Notes under the pieces: generated by a model
Told to the model about the DNA's origin: nothing
The model's input: the letters and a program-made list of their open reading frames with translations, nothing else
Databases searched by the model: none
Shown: one piece after another, positions 154 through 5,966 of the stretch
Numbering within the stretch: position 1 is the first letter of the stretch
How the letters are laid out: every line of letters starts with the position of its first letter
IMG/VR virus record: IMGVR_UViG_3300023481_000013
Span: 1 to 23,328 of that record
Origin: a virus
Strand: one strand, 5' to 3'
DNA: 23,328 bases
Made by a program: the position numbers and the translations under genes

Positions 154-276
154 CAACGTGACGAGATTCTGCGCCTCTTGCTAGCAGCCCCCGTGGAGAC
201 AAACCCGGAGCCTCGCATCCCCTGCATCGACACCCTGAACACCTACAAGGCCGACCTGAAGGAGTCTGTTTTGTGA
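1..276 (+). CDS. C-terminal part of a tetrapeptide-repeat protein (5' end outside window)
   Basis: Reading frame 1 is open from the first base to the TGA at 274-276. It encodes about 51 residues of a Gly/Ala/Ser/Tyr/Arg four-residue repeat (units such as AAGS, AARY, TAGF), then a unique tail beginning QRDEILRLLLAAP and ending NTYKADLKESVL. Repeat changes fall mostly at the second and third codons of each 12-base unit, so the frame is kept. The stop overlaps the GTG start of the next gene (GTGA), which supports translation in this frame. Similar Ala/Tyr/Arg-rich tetrapeptide proteins occur in phage early regions, but I know no function for them. The minus strand is also open through the repeat. 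It meets a stop just upstream and has only a weak TTG start, so I prefer the plus reading. Confidence 0.6.
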   Translation, partial: GFAGGSAAGYTAGSAARYAAGSSARYAAGSTAGFAGGSAAGYTAGSAARYAQRDEILRLLLAAPVETNPEPRIPCIDTLNTYKADLKESVL

Positions 277-509
277 ATCTCATAAAGCCCCTATGCATCT
301 ACCATGGCAATTGCGCCGACGGCTTCGGTGCCGCGTGGGCCGTCTGGAAAGCCTTAGAGGGCGGCGTCGAGTTGTGCGCTGGCGTCGATGCTACTTCGAT
401 CGAAGGAGCTCCGTTCTTGTCCTGGTTGCGGATACATTCGAGGTCCAGCGCTACTCTCTCACGGGAAGGGCTGCGATCTAGAAGCGCTACTCGCGAGGAT
501 CGAAGGTGA
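273..509 (+). pseudogene. 5' fragment of an interrupted DHH-family phosphoesterase gene
   Basis: A GTG start at 273 has a good AAGGAG ribosome site at about 258-263 and overlaps the upstream stop. The first 34 residues (CIYHGNCADGFGAAWAVWKAL) match the N-terminus of DHH phosphoesterases encoded by phages and bacteria, which normally begins IYHxxCxDGFGAAW; Asp16 is the expected early metal/active-site region. After about residue 34 (nt ~375) the likeness stops, and the frame runs on as Arg/Ser-rich sequence to a stop at 507-509. The expected middle of the enzyme, including the DHH motif, is absent. A matching C-terminal piece lies about 1 kb downstream (1375-1497). The gene therefore looks broken by insertion or replacement. 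Any product would be inactive. Confidence 0.65.
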
Positions 510-525
510 GGATGTTTCGAAGTGA
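388..525 (+). CDS. Small CCHC zinc-knuckle protein or fragment
   Basis: Frame 1 is open from 358 to the TGA at 523-525. The first ATG is at 388, giving 45 residues. The peptide contains CPGCGYIRGPALLSHGKGC, that is Cys-X2-Cys-X10-His-X3-Cys, a plausible single zinc site, followed by an acidic helix-like tail (LEALLARIEGEDVSK). The stop overlaps the GTG of the next gene in a GTGA, as at neighbouring junctions, which supports translation. There is no evident ribosome site before 388, and the ORF opens just where the phosphoesterase homology ends. It may therefore be the 3' end of a longer gene brought in with the methyltransferase cassette. I do not recognise the family. Confidence 0.45.
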   Translation: MLLRSKELRSCPGCGYIRGPALLSHGKGCDLEALLARIEGEDVSK

Positions 526-707
526 GCAATATGAAGAAACGAAGCAGAGGTCAGTGCATCAGTCCTGTTCTTTCCGATTCCGATATCCAGGCGATGAGGC
601 TCGACCACACAGCCGGCGCAAAGCAGCTATTCCTATCCAGGAAATATGGTGTCTCGAAAAGCTACGTGAGCCTGATCGTGAGACGCAAGAGGCGGGTGAA
701 GGCGTGA
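522..707 (+). CDS. Small helix-turn-helix protein
   Basis: A 61-residue basic protein. It starts at GTG 522, overlapping the previous stop, with GGTGAGGA at 505-512 as ribosome site. Residues ~18-50 (LSDSDIQAMRLDHTAGAKQL and FLSRKYGVSKSYVSLIVRRK) have the layout of a phage-type resolvase/MerR-like helix-turn-helix: 'aMR.......akqLa.kYGVS.syVs.Iv', with the recognition helix over SKSYVSLIV and a run of Arg/Lys after it. It probably binds DNA. It lies directly ahead of the methyltransferase gene and overlaps it by four bases (GTGA at 704-707), so the two are translationally coupled. It could control the cassette or simply travel with it. Its target is unknown. Confidence 0.7.
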   Translation: MSNMKKRSRGQCISPVLSDSDIQAMRLDHTAGAKQLFLSRKYGVSKSYVSLIVRRKRRVKA

Positions 708-1378
708 AGCCGTACTACGACCATGGCGGGATCGTCATATACCACGGTGATTGCAGGGACGTTCTCCCGAGCATCGAAGCTGATGTGATGGTTACGGATC
801 CTCCGTATGGGGTGGGGTTGAAGGGAAAGAAGGCGAACCACCGCGGACAAACGCGAGATTCAGGCAAAGGAGGGTATCTTAGCTTTGATGACTCCTTGGA
901 ATATGTCGATGAAGTCGTTGTCCCAGTCGTTGCATCTTGGGGAAGGGTGGCTGTAACGCCTGGGACTGCTGCGATGTGGCTTTACCCGAAGCCGTCGGAT
1001 ATAGGATGCTGGTATTCGGGCGGGGGGACGGGGCTGGGCTCGTGGGGTTTCAGATGTTTTCAGCCAATCTTGTATTACGGGAAGTGCCCATATGTTTCGA
1101 GCTCTCGCGGCCACAGGCCCAACAGCACTCATGGAATCTGGCCGAATGATTCCAACTATATTGACCATCCGTGCGCGAAGCCTATGGGGTTCATGAGGTG
1201 GCTTGTCGTCCGAGCATCTCTGGCGGGAGAAACCATCCTTGACCCCTTCATGGGATCCGGGACTACTCTCCGAGCGGCCAAAGATGAATGCCGCAAGGCA
1301 ATCGGAATCGAGATCGAGGAGAAGTACTGCGAGATCGCGGCCAACAGGCTAGCGCAAGAGGTTCTGCCATTTGAATAG
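704..1378 (+). CDS. Beta-class DNA methyltransferase (N6-adenine or N4-cytosine)
   Basis: A 224-residue SAM-dependent DNA amino-methyltransferase. The catalytic motif IV, DPPY, is at residues 32-35 and the SAM-binding motif I, DPFMGSGTT, at 180-188. This order (catalytic motif first) defines the beta group. DPPY favours adenine N6 over cytosine N4, but does not prove it. The frame is open further upstream to an apparent start at 506, but that part overlaps the HTH gene. The GTG at 704 overlaps the HTH stop (GTGA), has AGAGGCGGG upstream and begins exactly where homology should (MKPYYDHGGIVIYHGDCRDVL). No restriction enzyme gene is nearby, so it is probably a solitary enzyme, for example protecting phage DNA from host restriction (inference). 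It sits between the two halves of the phosphoesterase gene. Confidence 0.88.
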   Translation: MKPYYDHGGIVIYHGDCRDVLPSIEADVMVTDPPYGVGLKGKKANHRGQTRDSGKGGYLSFDDSLEYVDEVVVPVVASWGRVAVTPGTAAMWLYPKPSDIGCWYSGGGTGLGSWGFRCFQPILYYGKCPYVSSSRGHRPNSTHGIWPNDSNYIDHPCAKPMGFMRWLVVRASLAGETILDPFMGSGTTLRAAKDECRKAIGIEIEEKYCEIAANRLAQEVLPFE

Positions 1379-1497
1379 ACGATCCTTCATCGGCGCGATT
1401 GGATGTATCAGAAATCGCCACTATGTATGGCGGCGGTGGACACAAACACGCAGCGGGGTTCAGCGTCCCGCGTGATCACGAGCTGGCGAAGGCATAA
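1375..1497 (+). pseudogene. 3' fragment of the interrupted DHH-family phosphoesterase gene
   Basis: Frame 1 runs open from 1375, after a stop at 1372-1374, to TAA at 1495-1497. It encodes IDDPSSARLDVSEIATMY then GGGGHKHAAGF and FSVPRDHELAKA. The GGGGHxxAAGF motif is the hallmark of the DHHA1 substrate-binding domain at the C-terminus of DHH phosphoesterases, and 'DVSeiA..yGGGGHk.AAGF' is the usual ending of these phage enzymes. There is no start codon before the motif except an internal ATG at 1423. Together with the 5' fragment at 273 this shows one gene cut in two, with roughly 200 central codons missing, judged from the usual ~300-residue length of the family. The TAA shares its last base with the ATG of the next gene. 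Confidence 0.75.
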
Positions 1498-1942: not shown

Positions 1943-2082
1943 TCGCAACCCGGTGTTACGGCTGCGGCGCACCGCCGGATCGGTTCGGGTGGTATTTGCT
2001 CCGTGACATGCAGTTGTGCGAGAATTGTTGGGCCGCCGCAGTTGAGTGTGAAGCAAACGAAAAGGATCCACCTCAGAAATGA
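1933..2082 (+). CDS. Small zinc-ribbon protein
   Basis: A 49-residue ORF starting at GTG 1933 and ending at TGA 2080-2082. It begins inside the end of the previous gene and overlaps the next gene's ATG (ATGA), so both borders fit the local overlap pattern. It contains CYGCG and, 18 residues on, CENC: two Cys-X2-Cys knuckles, as in a treble-clef or zinc-ribbon fold. The ribosome site is weak (AAAGAG before the start), suggesting translational coupling. Phages often carry such short proteins; their partners are unknown. Confidence 0.6.
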   Translation: MSIIATRCYGCGAPPDRFGWYLLRDMQLCENCWAAAVECEANEKDPPQK

Positions 2083-3338
2083 AACTCGATAAAGCATGGC
2101 CGGCCGCCAAGGTCGAAGAGCGCGACACAACCGCACTGGTCCCGTACGCACGCAACGCTCGAACTCATACCGAGGCCCAGGTGGCTCAGCTTGTGGCCTC
2201 GATCAAGGAGTGGGGATGGACCAATCCCGTCCTAGTGGACGAGGGCAACATGATCATTGCGGGCCACGGCAGACTGCTTGCTGCCCAGCAACTCGGCATG
2301 GAGAAGGTGCCGGTCATGGTGGCGCGAGGTTGGACCAAAGCCCAGAAGGCGGCCTATGTGATCGCAGATAACAAGCTGGCCGAGAATGCAGGCTGGGATA
2401 AGGAGCTGCTGAAGGTGGAGCTGGAGGGGCTCACGGAGCTGGACTTCGACTTGGGATTGACTGGGTTCGGCGACTTGGAGCTGGGCAACATCATGGCGTC
2501 GAAGGACTCGCTAGAGGAGGGCTATGAGAAGGAGATCGAGGTGCCCGTCGATCCTGTGGCGCAGCCAGGCGACCTTTGGGAGCTGGGCCCGCACCGCGTA
2601 TATTGTGGGGACAGCACCGATGCGGACTGCGTTGCCATGCTATTTGATGGCCACAAGCCTGGGATCATGGTCACTGATCCGCCCTACGGGGTGGAGTATG
2701 ATCCGGATTGGCGAAATCGGGCTACACGCAAAGATGACAAACCAGTAGGTGAAAGAAGTGTAGGTAAGGTCCAGAACGACGACCGCATTGACTGGACAGA
2801 TGCCTGGCGTCTATTCCCTGGCGACGTTATGTACGTGTGGCATGCGAGCTGGTTCATCAGCGACGTTCACCGGAACATCAGGGATGCAAACTTCGATACG
2901 CGGGCATTGATTATCTGGAACAAGAGCCGGTTCGCAATGGGCCGCGGTGACTATCATTGGAAACATGAACCCCTGTGGTACGCTGTCCGGAAGAGCGCCA
3001 AGTCAGGTTGGAAGGGCGACCGAACACAGTCAACCGTGTGGGATATTCAGACCAGCGACGACGGCGACAAGACGATCCACTCAACGCAGAAGCCTCTGGA
3101 ATGCATGGGCCGGCCGCTGCGCAACCACACCTTCGACGAGGTCTACGACCCCTTCCTGGGGGCCGGCACGACCCTCATAGCGGCACATCTGCTGGAGAAG
3201 ACTTGTTTCGGACTGGAGATCGACCCAGGATACGTGGACGTGATCATTCAGCGATGGCAAGACCGAACGAAGATCAAAGCCAAGTGCAAGGGCAAGACCT
3301 ACGACTCTCTGTTGAAGGCCAAGGAGGCGAAGAAGTGA
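2079..3338 (+). CDS. ParB-like nuclease-domain / DNA methyltransferase fusion
   Basis: A 419-residue protein with two domains. Residues ~18-115 form a ParB/Srx-like domain (LVPYARNARTHTEAQVAQL, then a GHGRLLAAQQLG helix region). Residues ~165-400 form a beta-class DNA methyltransferase with DPPY at 200-203 and SAM-binding DPFLGAGTT at 357-365. This architecture is widespread in phages and prophages, usually just ahead of the terminase genes, as here, and is annotated as a DNA modification methylase. The ParB-like part may recognise DNA or hydrolyse nucleotide, but its role is not settled. The ATG start overlaps the previous stop. AAGGAGGCG near its 3' end serves the following gene. No cognate restriction enzyme is seen. 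Target base and site cannot be read from the sequence. Confidence 0.9.
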   Translation: MKLDKAWPAAKVEERDTTALVPYARNARTHTEAQVAQLVASIKEWGWTNPVLVDEGNMIIAGHGRLLAAQQLGMEKVPVMVARGWTKAQKAAYVIADNKLAENAGWDKELLKVELEGLTELDFDLGLTGFGDLELGNIMASKDSLEEGYEKEIEVPVDPVAQPGDLWELGPHRVYCGDSTDADCVAMLFDGHKPGIMVTDPPYGVEYDPDWRNRATRKDDKPVGERSVGKVQNDDRIDWTDAWRLFPGDVMYVWHASWFISDVHRNIRDANFDTRALIIWNKSRFAMGRGDYHWKHEPLWYAVRKSAKSGWKGDRTQSTVWDIQTSDDGDKTIHSTQKPLECMGRPLRNHTFDEVYDPFLGAGTTLIAAHLLEKTCFGLEIDPGYVDVIIQRWQDRTKIKAKCKGKTYDSLLKAKEAKK

Positions 3339-3668: not shown

Positions 3669-4141
3669 CTGCCAAGAAGCCTCCCGGTGAGCCCAGGAAG
3701 AACAAGCACGTCCCTACGGATGACATGCGCTCTAAAGTCGAGGGACTGACTGCTGTGGGCATCCGTAGGGTGGACTTGGCGGATGTCTTGGGGGTCTCCA
3801 CGAACACACTAGAGAGGCATTATGCTCGCGAGCTTCGTGTTGGTCTAGTCAAAGCGAATGCCAAGGTCGCGGAGACGCTATTTAACAAGGCCATCAATGG
3901 CGACACGACTTCTATTATCTTCTGGCTGAAGACGCGGGCGCGATGGTCTACGGTCGAACATCTCCATGTAGAGGGCTCCGTCTCTCAGGAAGAGGTTCAG
4001 GCCCCGCTCATGCGTAGCCTAAACACGCTCGATGTCACTCAGCTTAAACAACTCCACGAGATCGCAACGGCTCTCACCGATCGAACGGAATCTGCGGCTC
4101 TGCTTAAAAACGGGAGCAACGGATCTATCTCTCGGAATTGA
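3665..4141 (+). CDS. Terminase small subunit (DNA recognition)
   Basis: A 158-residue protein. I chose ATG 3665 because it overlaps the previous stop (ATGA); the frame is open back to 3611. Residues ~30-60 (TAVGIRRVDLADVLGVSTNT and LERHYARE) form a helix-turn-helix that would recognise the packaging site. The next part (LVKANAKVAETLFNKAI, TTSIIFWLKTRARWST) matches the oligomerisation region of phage small terminases, where 'A.IFWLKtRarW' is characteristic. It lies directly before the large terminase gene, as usual, and its last 110 bases overlap the first possible start of that gene. Its role would be to bind the phage genome end and bring in the large subunit for packaging. Confidence 0.82.
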   Translation: MTAKKPPGEPRKNKHVPTDDMRSKVEGLTAVGIRRVDLADVLGVSTNTLERHYARELRVGLVKANAKVAETLFNKAINGDTTSIIFWLKTRARWSTVEHLHVEGSVSQEEVQAPLMRSLNTLDVTQLKQLHEIATALTDRTESAALLKNGSNGSISRN

Positions 4142-5966
4142 GAAGCTGATCTGCGCCAAGTCCCTTGGGGAGTTTGTGCGCATGGGATGGCAGCAGTTGC
4201 ACCCGGCAACGCCGTTCATTGGCGGTTGGGCGCTTGATGCTATGTGCGAGCATCTTGAGGCAGTGACGCACGGAGAGATCAAGAACCTTCTGATCAATGT
4301 TCCGCCAGGCTGCACCAAACCCGGATGGGTTGAGAATGAGGTGATGACCTCGCGCGGTATCGTTCGTCTTGGAGATATCGTTGTTGGCGATGAGGTGCTG
4401 ACCCATCGCGGGAGATACCGAGCTGTTTTGGATGTGCATCGGCAGGGGGTGATGCCGCTACTTAAGGTGGTCACTCATGGGGGGAGAGAATCCTATCCAG
4501 AGCCGAGCCATCCATACCTAACCACTGGCGGGTGGATCCAGGCGAGGGACCTGAGGGTGGGGGATGCGTTGGCTGCAGTCCATGCGAGCACTGAGGGAGG
4601 AGAGGACACCTTGGCCCGAGATGAAATTGCCTCGATCGAAGAGATAGCCCCCGGCGAGTGTCGGTGCTTGACTGTCTCTGAGGACCAGTCAATGACGTGG
4701 GGTGGAGTTGCTGTTCACAACTCGATGCTGGTCAACATCTACTGGCCGGCTTGGGAGTGGGGCCCGCTGAACCGCCCGCACCTTCAGTACATCTCCGCCT
4801 CATACGAACGTGGCCTCTCGGTGCAGCACATGGTCCGCTGCCGCGAGATCATGCAGGGTGAATGGTTTCAAAAGCGCTGGGGTGGGAACTTCAAGTTCAA
4901 GGGCGATGCGAACATGAAGACGGCTTACCACAACACTTTCCAGGGGACACGGTTTGCTTCGTCGGTTGGGGCATCGATCGTTGGATATCGCGGCGACCGT
5001 CTGATCATCGACGATCCCCACGATGTTCACAAGGCCGAGTCCGACACGATCCGCGAGGATGTTATCCGATGGTTTGCCGAGACGCTTCCCACGCGGAAGA
5101 ATAACAAGGACACGGCAACGGTCGTCATTATGCAGCGTGTCCACGAGCGCGACGTGTCCGGATTCATTCTCTCGAAGGAGCTGGGCTACACTCATCTCTG
5201 TTTGCCCATGACGGGCGACCCGCAGCACCCATATCAATCAACGCACTTCGTGGACCCTCGCGAGCCAGGCGAACTTCTATGGCCCGAGCGCTTTGATGAG
5301 GAGACAGTGGAAGAACTTCGGAAGTCATTCCGAGCGTTCGGCGGCTCCTACGCAGAGGCCGGTCAGTTAGAGCAGCGGCCCTCGCCTCGTGGTGGCGGAA
5401 TGTTCCAGCAGAAGGACTTCCAGTTCCTTGAGGAGGGTCCTCGACCTGACGAGATCGCCAAGGGGTCCAGGGGATGGGACCTTGCGGCAACCGAGGGGGG
5501 TGGGTCGTTCACGGCCGGCGTCAAAATGTGCCGGCTGAGGGACGGCTCGATTGTCATTCAAGACATGGTGCGGGGCCAGTGGAGGCCTTCGGTCGTCTAC
5601 GATATGATCCGAACATGCGCCCTGCAGGACGGACCACAGGTGGTTCAGTCTATCCCCCAAGACCCGGGGCAGGCCGGCAAGGACCAGAAGCGCCATATCG
5701 CCTCTCACCTTCATGGATGCACCTTGCATTTCTCTCCTGAGAGTGGATCGAAGGTGGATCGAGCGCGCCCATTGGCATCCCAGGCTGAGTCCGGGAACTT
5801 GTATCTGGTTCGAGGTCCGTGGAATGACACGTTCATTCAGAATGCCTGCGTATTCCCCCGTGGGGAGTTTCTGGACGACATTGACGCGGCCAGCAGGGCA
5901 TATGGAAGGCTGATCGAGAGCCGGATTCCATTGTTGGGGGCTTCTCCCCGGCTCATCGGAGGCTAG
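4032..5966 (+). CDS. terL: Terminase large subunit precursor with an in-frame intein
   Basis: A 644-residue precursor of the packaging ATPase/nuclease. The Walker A sequence is split: NVPPGCTK ends at residue 96 and SMLVNIYWPAWEW resumes at 231. Removing residues 97-230 restores a normal terminase P-loop and leaves a 510-residue protein. Walker B is LIIDDPH (324-330), followed by a coupling segment VVIMQRVHERD. The RNase H-like nuclease has GWDLAAT (Asp483) and DDIDAA (Asp615, 616, 618) as likely metal ligands. The protein packages DNA into the prohead through the portal and cuts concatemers. ATG 4032 is the only ATG, GTG or TTG upstream of the conserved region in this frame. It forces a 110-base overlap with the small subunit gene and has no clear ribosome site, so the exact start is uncertain. 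Confidence 0.9.
   Translation: MSLSLNNSTRSQRLSPIERNLRLCLKTGATDLSLGIEKLICAKSLGEFVRMGWQQLHPATPFIGGWALDAMCEHLEAVTHGEIKNLLINVPPGCTKPGWVENEVMTSRGIVRLGDIVVGDEVLTHRGRYRAVLDVHRQGVMPLLKVVTHGGRESYPEPSHPYLTTGGWIQARDLRVGDALAAVHASTEGGEDTLARDEIASIEEIAPGECRCLTVSEDQSMTWGGVAVHNSMLVNIYWPAWEWGPLNRPHLQYISASYERGLSVQHMVRCREIMQGEWFQKRWGGNFKFKGDANMKTAYHNTFQGTRFASSVGASIVGYRGDRLIIDDPHDVHKAESDTIREDVIRWFAETLPTRKNNKDTATVVIMQRVHERDVSGFILSKELGYTHLCLPMTGDPQHPYQSTHFVDPREPGELLWPERFDEETVEELRKSFRAFGGSYAEAGQLEQRPSPRGGGMFQQKDFQFLEEGPRPDEIAKGSRGWDLAATEGGGSFTAGVKMCRLRDGSIVIQDMVRGQWRPSVVYDMIRTCALQDGPQVVQSIPQDPGQAGKDQKRHIASHLHGCTLHFSPESGSKVDRARPLASQAESGNLYLVRGPWNDTFIQNACVFPRGEFLDDIDAASRAYGRLIESRIPLLGASPRLIGG
4320..4721 (+). other. 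Mini-intein inside the terminase Walker A motif (no Cys1)
   Basis: 134 residues interrupt the P-loop between Lys and Ser. Splicing motifs are visible: block A-like region VMTSRGIVRLGDIVVGDEVL, block B around EPSHPYLTTGGW (His at precursor residue 160), block F CRCLTV (Cys at residue 212, at the fourth position, where ordinary inteins have Asp) and C-terminal VHN followed by Ser+1. To restore the P-loop Lys the intein must start at Pro (KPGW), not at a Cys, Ser or Ala. Lack of Cys1 with Cys at F:4 resembles class 3 inteins, which are known from phage terminases and helicases and use that Cys as first nucleophile. The Trp and Thr of the class 3 signature are not clear here (Tyr and Val in my alignment). 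No homing endonuclease domain is present. Confidence 0.85.

Follow-up and report, generated by a model that had tools for sequence, protein, structure and literature searches.

A DHH phosphoesterase gene split by a methyltransferase block in a tailed-phage contig, very likely through replacement of its catalytic middle

Two ends of one DHH phosphoesterase gene

The window, namely the whole stretch of DNA analysed here, is an entire, linear-ended IMG/VR record of 23,328 bases and represents a fragment of a tailed phage, its portal protein being 47% identical to the portal of Roseobacter phage RDJL Phi 2. On its plus strand, an N-terminal remnant of a DHH phosphoesterase gene (273-386, 38 codons) has its own start codon, GTG at 273, and carries motif I of the family (CADGFGAAW), while a C-terminal remnant of the same gene (1378-1497, plus strand; DHHA1, DVSEIATMYGGGGHKHAAGF) carries the DHHA1 motif GGGGH, ends with the stop codon TAA at 1495-1497 and has no usable start site. 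The two pieces were scanned independently, each against 38,880 families, and PHROG 4771, the DHH phosphoesterases of the NrnA/TM1595-like fold family (Pfam DHH + DHHA1), was the best family for both, the N piece matching positions 16-48 of the 363-position profile (E = 3.4e-9) and the C piece positions 258-290 (E = 3.8e-10). The C piece also matched Pfam DHHA1 with an E value of 5.2e-6, above the Pfam cutoff. Since the same family was hit at collinear positions in two independent scans of this breadth, the matches are not due to chance.

No single open reading frame (ORF) links the two ends in the window. The DFS, DHH and DRD metal-binding motifs are missing between 386 and 1378 and everywhere else in the window, and a displaced DHH catalytic middle, looked for across the whole window, was not found. 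Unlike the members of PHROG 4771, the window gene is without this middle and is therefore not a functional member of the family. The DHH gene in this phage is dead, as the earlier note on this DNA had claimed.

Comparison with intact relatives

Relatives were collected by an IMG/VR search with the joined DHH ends, plus one phage record, and 72 of the loci hold both ends. In these 72 loci the two ends lie within one gene, spaced by 699-819 nt versus 1102 nt in the window; the gene is open from end to end in 70, and a comparable insert splits none of them (0/72). In the loci L123 (6001-6918) and L127 (5239-6102), the DHH gene is otherwise intact, running in one frame across an in-frame stop with no insert, and this stop may reflect recoding, a pseudogene or a sequence error. 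The residues missing in the window between the two edges number 233 in the median (range 199-239, 59 proteins), giving a balance of about 700 nt (~233 codons) lost and about 990 nt gained. Together with the collinear best matches, these comparisons uphold the earlier claims that the pieces at 273 and 1375 derive from one DHH gene, that its catalytic middle is gone, and that DNA was replaced rather than simply inserted.

The N remnant is 81% identical to the intact protein of locus L082, and the C remnant is 85% identical to those of L083, L134 and L145. Both values fall inside the range of nearest-neighbour identities among the intact proteins (minimum 65% for the N part and 73% for the C part), and all columns conserved in at least 90% of the intact proteins are kept (15/15 in the N remnant and 12/12 in the C remnant). 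This lack of decay suggests that the loss is recent; the replacement event was probably recent, and the undecayed state could also reflect the short length of the remnants.

A relative with an intact DHH gene between the same neighbours, for which the earlier note had proposed a search, was not found: the closest genomes retrieved through the portal and ParB-methyltransferase searches were only L164 and L165, both of which end before the split-DHH region. As syntenic references, RDJL Phi 2 and KPP23 have no DHH or methyltransferase annotation within 9 kb upstream of their portal genes. No homologues of the upstream ORF tail (the ORF ending at 276) or of the downstream ORF 1497 were found in phages or IMG/VR. 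The contig opens, at 1-153 and inside an open frame, with a 12-bp tandem repeat (GGGTCCGCCGCT, ~13 copies), which is probably the point where the assembly stopped, and the sequence upstream of the split DHH locus reaches no farther than this repeat.

Farther along the contig, the gene for the terminase large subunit (4032-5966) contains an in-frame insert of ~135 residues at about 4320-4724 (from PGWVENEVMT through ECRCLTV to VAVHN, followed by S), which is absent from the 86%-identical L164 and L165, where PPGCTK runs directly into SMLVNIY. The insert gives weak Hint/PT-HINT matches and is intein-like: position 1 has no nucleophile, block B has a W and block F a C, all as in class 3 inteins (PMC5050341), but V stands at the T of the WCT motif.

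Three open reading frames between the remnants

Between the DHH remnants, three ORFs on the plus strand are joined by GTGA overlaps at 522-525 and 704-707, as had been described. The first, of 45 codons (388-525), has no Shine-Dalgarno (SD) sequence and no homologue in family searches, IMG/VR or phages. The CxxC...HxxxC spacing that had led to its being called a zinc knuckle is present, but no family or sequence match to a zinc-binding family was obtained, and a zinc-knuckle protein is not supported.

The second, a helix-turn-helix (HTH) ORF of 61 codons (522-707), resembles the C-terminal HTH of HNH endonucleases, both in its PHROG matches (PHROG 20467 and others) and in its similarity to phage HNH proteins. 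Its only IMG/VR relatives are the C-terminal domains of HNH endonucleases (L245-L248), with which it has the signature VSLIVRRK in common. In contrast to these endonucleases, the window ORF has no HNH domain; neither an HNH nuclease domain or motif nor, in family searches, a recombinase ORF was found within the insert.

The third (704-1378) encodes a complete N6/N4-type DNA methyltransferase (Pfam N6_N4_Mtase, E = 1.9e-21; PHROG 67, E = 2.1e-42), and its TAG stop lies at the right edge of the block. In beta-class amino-methyltransferases, DPPY precedes DPFxGSGTT, and the window protein, which is full-length, has DPPYG and then DPFMGSGTT. Among the orphan phage methyltransferases of these families in IMG/VR, identity reaches 63% over residues 1-223 with the nearest relatives, L002 and L003, and its C-terminal RLAQEVLPFE aligns with the ends of full-length relatives. 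Unlike these relatives, the window methyltransferase sits inside a DHH remnant. The predicted enzyme may protect the phage DNA from restriction. A second methyltransferase gene in the same operon (2079-3338) encodes a fusion with a ParB-like N-terminal domain (PHROG 498, E = 6e-131). On the contig of L004, two related methyltransferase genes occur in tandem (109-789 and 1272-1946) with ~480 nt between them.

The GC content at third codon positions (GC3) is 0.57 in the insert versus 0.76 in the DHH N piece. Since ORF 1742 of the same operon also has a low GC3 (0.59), this difference is weak evidence of a foreign origin.

SD-like pairing is strong at the DHH start at 273 (-8.3 kcal/mol), the HTH start at 522 (-7.5 kcal/mol) and the methyltransferase start at 704 (-8.6 kcal/mol), and weak at ORF 388 (-2.5 kcal/mol) and in the C remnant (-1.7 kcal/mol at 1399 and -4.0 kcal/mol at 1423). 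This pattern suggests that the start at 273 probably makes a 78-residue peptide, in which 38 DHH residues are followed by 40 nonsense residues from an out-of-frame tail into the new DNA (387-509, plus strand, stop TGA at 507-509), and that the HTH and methyltransferase ORFs are probably translated after it. The earlier view of a functional-looking cassette whose genes keep their own ribosome sites thus holds for the HTH ORF and the complete methyltransferase gene, and fails for the first inner ORF.

Position and sequence of the junctions

At the left edge, GGCGTC (381-386) is the last stretch that matches DHH genes, and the 45-codon ORF starts at the following ATG, 2 nt on at 388. At the right edge, the methyltransferase stop TAG occupies 1376-1378. 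The match to DHH proteins is certain from about 1396; that it begins as early as 1378 is probable, because the loop preceding LDVSVIA in L083 has the same length. The gained DNA spans almost exactly the stretch from the ATG of the 45-codon ORF to the methyltransferase stop codon, with the left joint lying within a few bases, and the right joint within about 20, of the limit of a complete ORF. Past the left edge, intact proteins continue as AGV-Y-x-x-D-P-P-D. The codons that come first, in frame, behind the methyltransferase TAG are GAC GAT CCT (DDP); MAFFT puts them at this spot, where L082 has ACGATCCT. Beyond the edges, neither GC content nor the reading frames show a break.

Short repeats at the mapped edges, another check that had been proposed, were not seen: no exact repeat of at least 7 nt is common to both edges, in keeping with an illegitimate exchange rather than a homologous or site-specific one. 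In the wider flanks, no direct or inverted repeat exceeds 8 nt, the longest exact direct match being one of 8 nt at 451 and 1263, off the edges. The exact left-junction sequence was found in no other viral contig of IMG/VR, and the replacement therefore rests on one metagenome assembly.

Search for a recurrent cassette

The block had earlier been regarded as possible moron traffic. The sample consisted of the fetched loci, namely 95 loci of strong methyltransferase relatives and the 72 DHH loci. A DHH piece occurs in none of the 95 methyltransferase loci, and an HTH of the window type stands beside none of these relatives (0/95, 90 of them with at least 300 nt upstream). Neither the same ORF set nor the same insertion site was found in another genome among the 95 and 72 loci, and the 45-codon ORF, HTH and methyltransferase do not recur as a unit in viral, genome or phage methyltransferase loci. 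Promoter- and terminator-like matches were near the shuffled background, and none framed 387-1378 (the promoter scan covered sigma-70 types). A moron is an autonomous extra gene with its own promoter and terminator, placed between two genes that are intact in relatives; here the block sits inside a gene, replacing its middle. Moron traffic is not supported by these results.

Mycobacteriophages have an HNH gene that shares a 4-bp overlap with a homologous methyltransferase gene; we considered this pair as a parent of the block and rejected it, as the HNH protein there is without this HTH. It is highly improbable that phages use the DHH locus as a preferred landing site, trading the DHH phosphoesterase there for a methyltransferase block that travels with an HNH-derived element.

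Origin of the split gene

We consider it very likely that the locus is a product of phage mosaicism, in which the DHH gene was inactivated as ~233 of its codons were replaced by ~990 nt with three end-to-end ORFs, the last being the complete methyltransferase gene. Non-homologous recombination with another phage or prophage would be the most likely mechanism, and the exchange may have taken one step or two (insertion plus deletion). Its retention would be explained by a methyltransferase that can still be expressed from the operon and by a DHH function that was dispensable. Both the direction of the exchange and a phage donor are what we infer.

A specific order of events, in which the three-ORF block entered after the codons for AGV and a later in-frame deletion took the DHH middle and left DDP as a scrap, is possible but doubtful: the DDP to the right of the TAG does resemble the DPP found in intact proteins just past the left edge, but this signal comprises only 8-9 nt and is not decisive, and DDPSSAR may just as well represent the variable loop preceding LDVSEIA, like EEGGTEA, of the same length, in L083. 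The kinship of the HTH ORF with the C-terminal domains of HNH endonucleases, together with the 4-bp overlap in mycobacteriophages, is what speaks for a homing-type HNH endonuclease having cut the DHH gene, copied itself in with a neighbouring methyltransferase gene and since shrunk to its HTH domain. We regard this as very improbable, because the mycobacteriophage HNH proteins do not have this HTH, Bolt007 and other phages have annotated HTH genes of this type that stand alone, the insert retains no HNH motif, and a 700-nt deletion of the target is not normal for homing.

An assembly artefact, with reads from different phages joined in the contig, would accord with a single metagenome contig that ends on the left in a tandem repeat and with a junction not seen elsewhere. 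It is nevertheless very improbable, as it would take two false joins within one gene, on one strand and in the right order, each close to the limit of a complete ORF, and GC content and reading frames are unbroken beyond the edges. Least probable is that the end pieces are still-used small proteins or leader peptides rather than remnants; both retain all strongly conserved residues and the N piece has a strong SD, but the reading frame of this piece continues into foreign DNA out of frame, a good start site is lacking in the C piece, and the DFS, DHH and DRD motifs are all missing.

Replacement by mosaic exchange, as the preferred reading, would make this locus a clean, datable example of function exchange in phages, with both ends of the replaced gene undecayed and with joints that can be located closely and fall at complete-ORF limits without shared sequence. 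It would also mean that the DHH phosphoesterase was dispensable to this phage. The split gene is a single, unusually clear instance of the ordinary shuffling of phage genomes and by itself opens no new question.

In the size distribution of phage mosaics, small gene fragments are exchanged more often than whole modules, and whether such mosaics arise by illegitimate or relaxed homologous recombination is debated (PMC3945230). Like phage mosaics with gene remnants, the window has sharp novel joints, a partly kept gene, and foreign genes in between on the same strand and in the same operon (PMC3945230). It is thus of the same kind, and cleaner than most of them, in that both gene ends survive and the joints lie at ORF limits.
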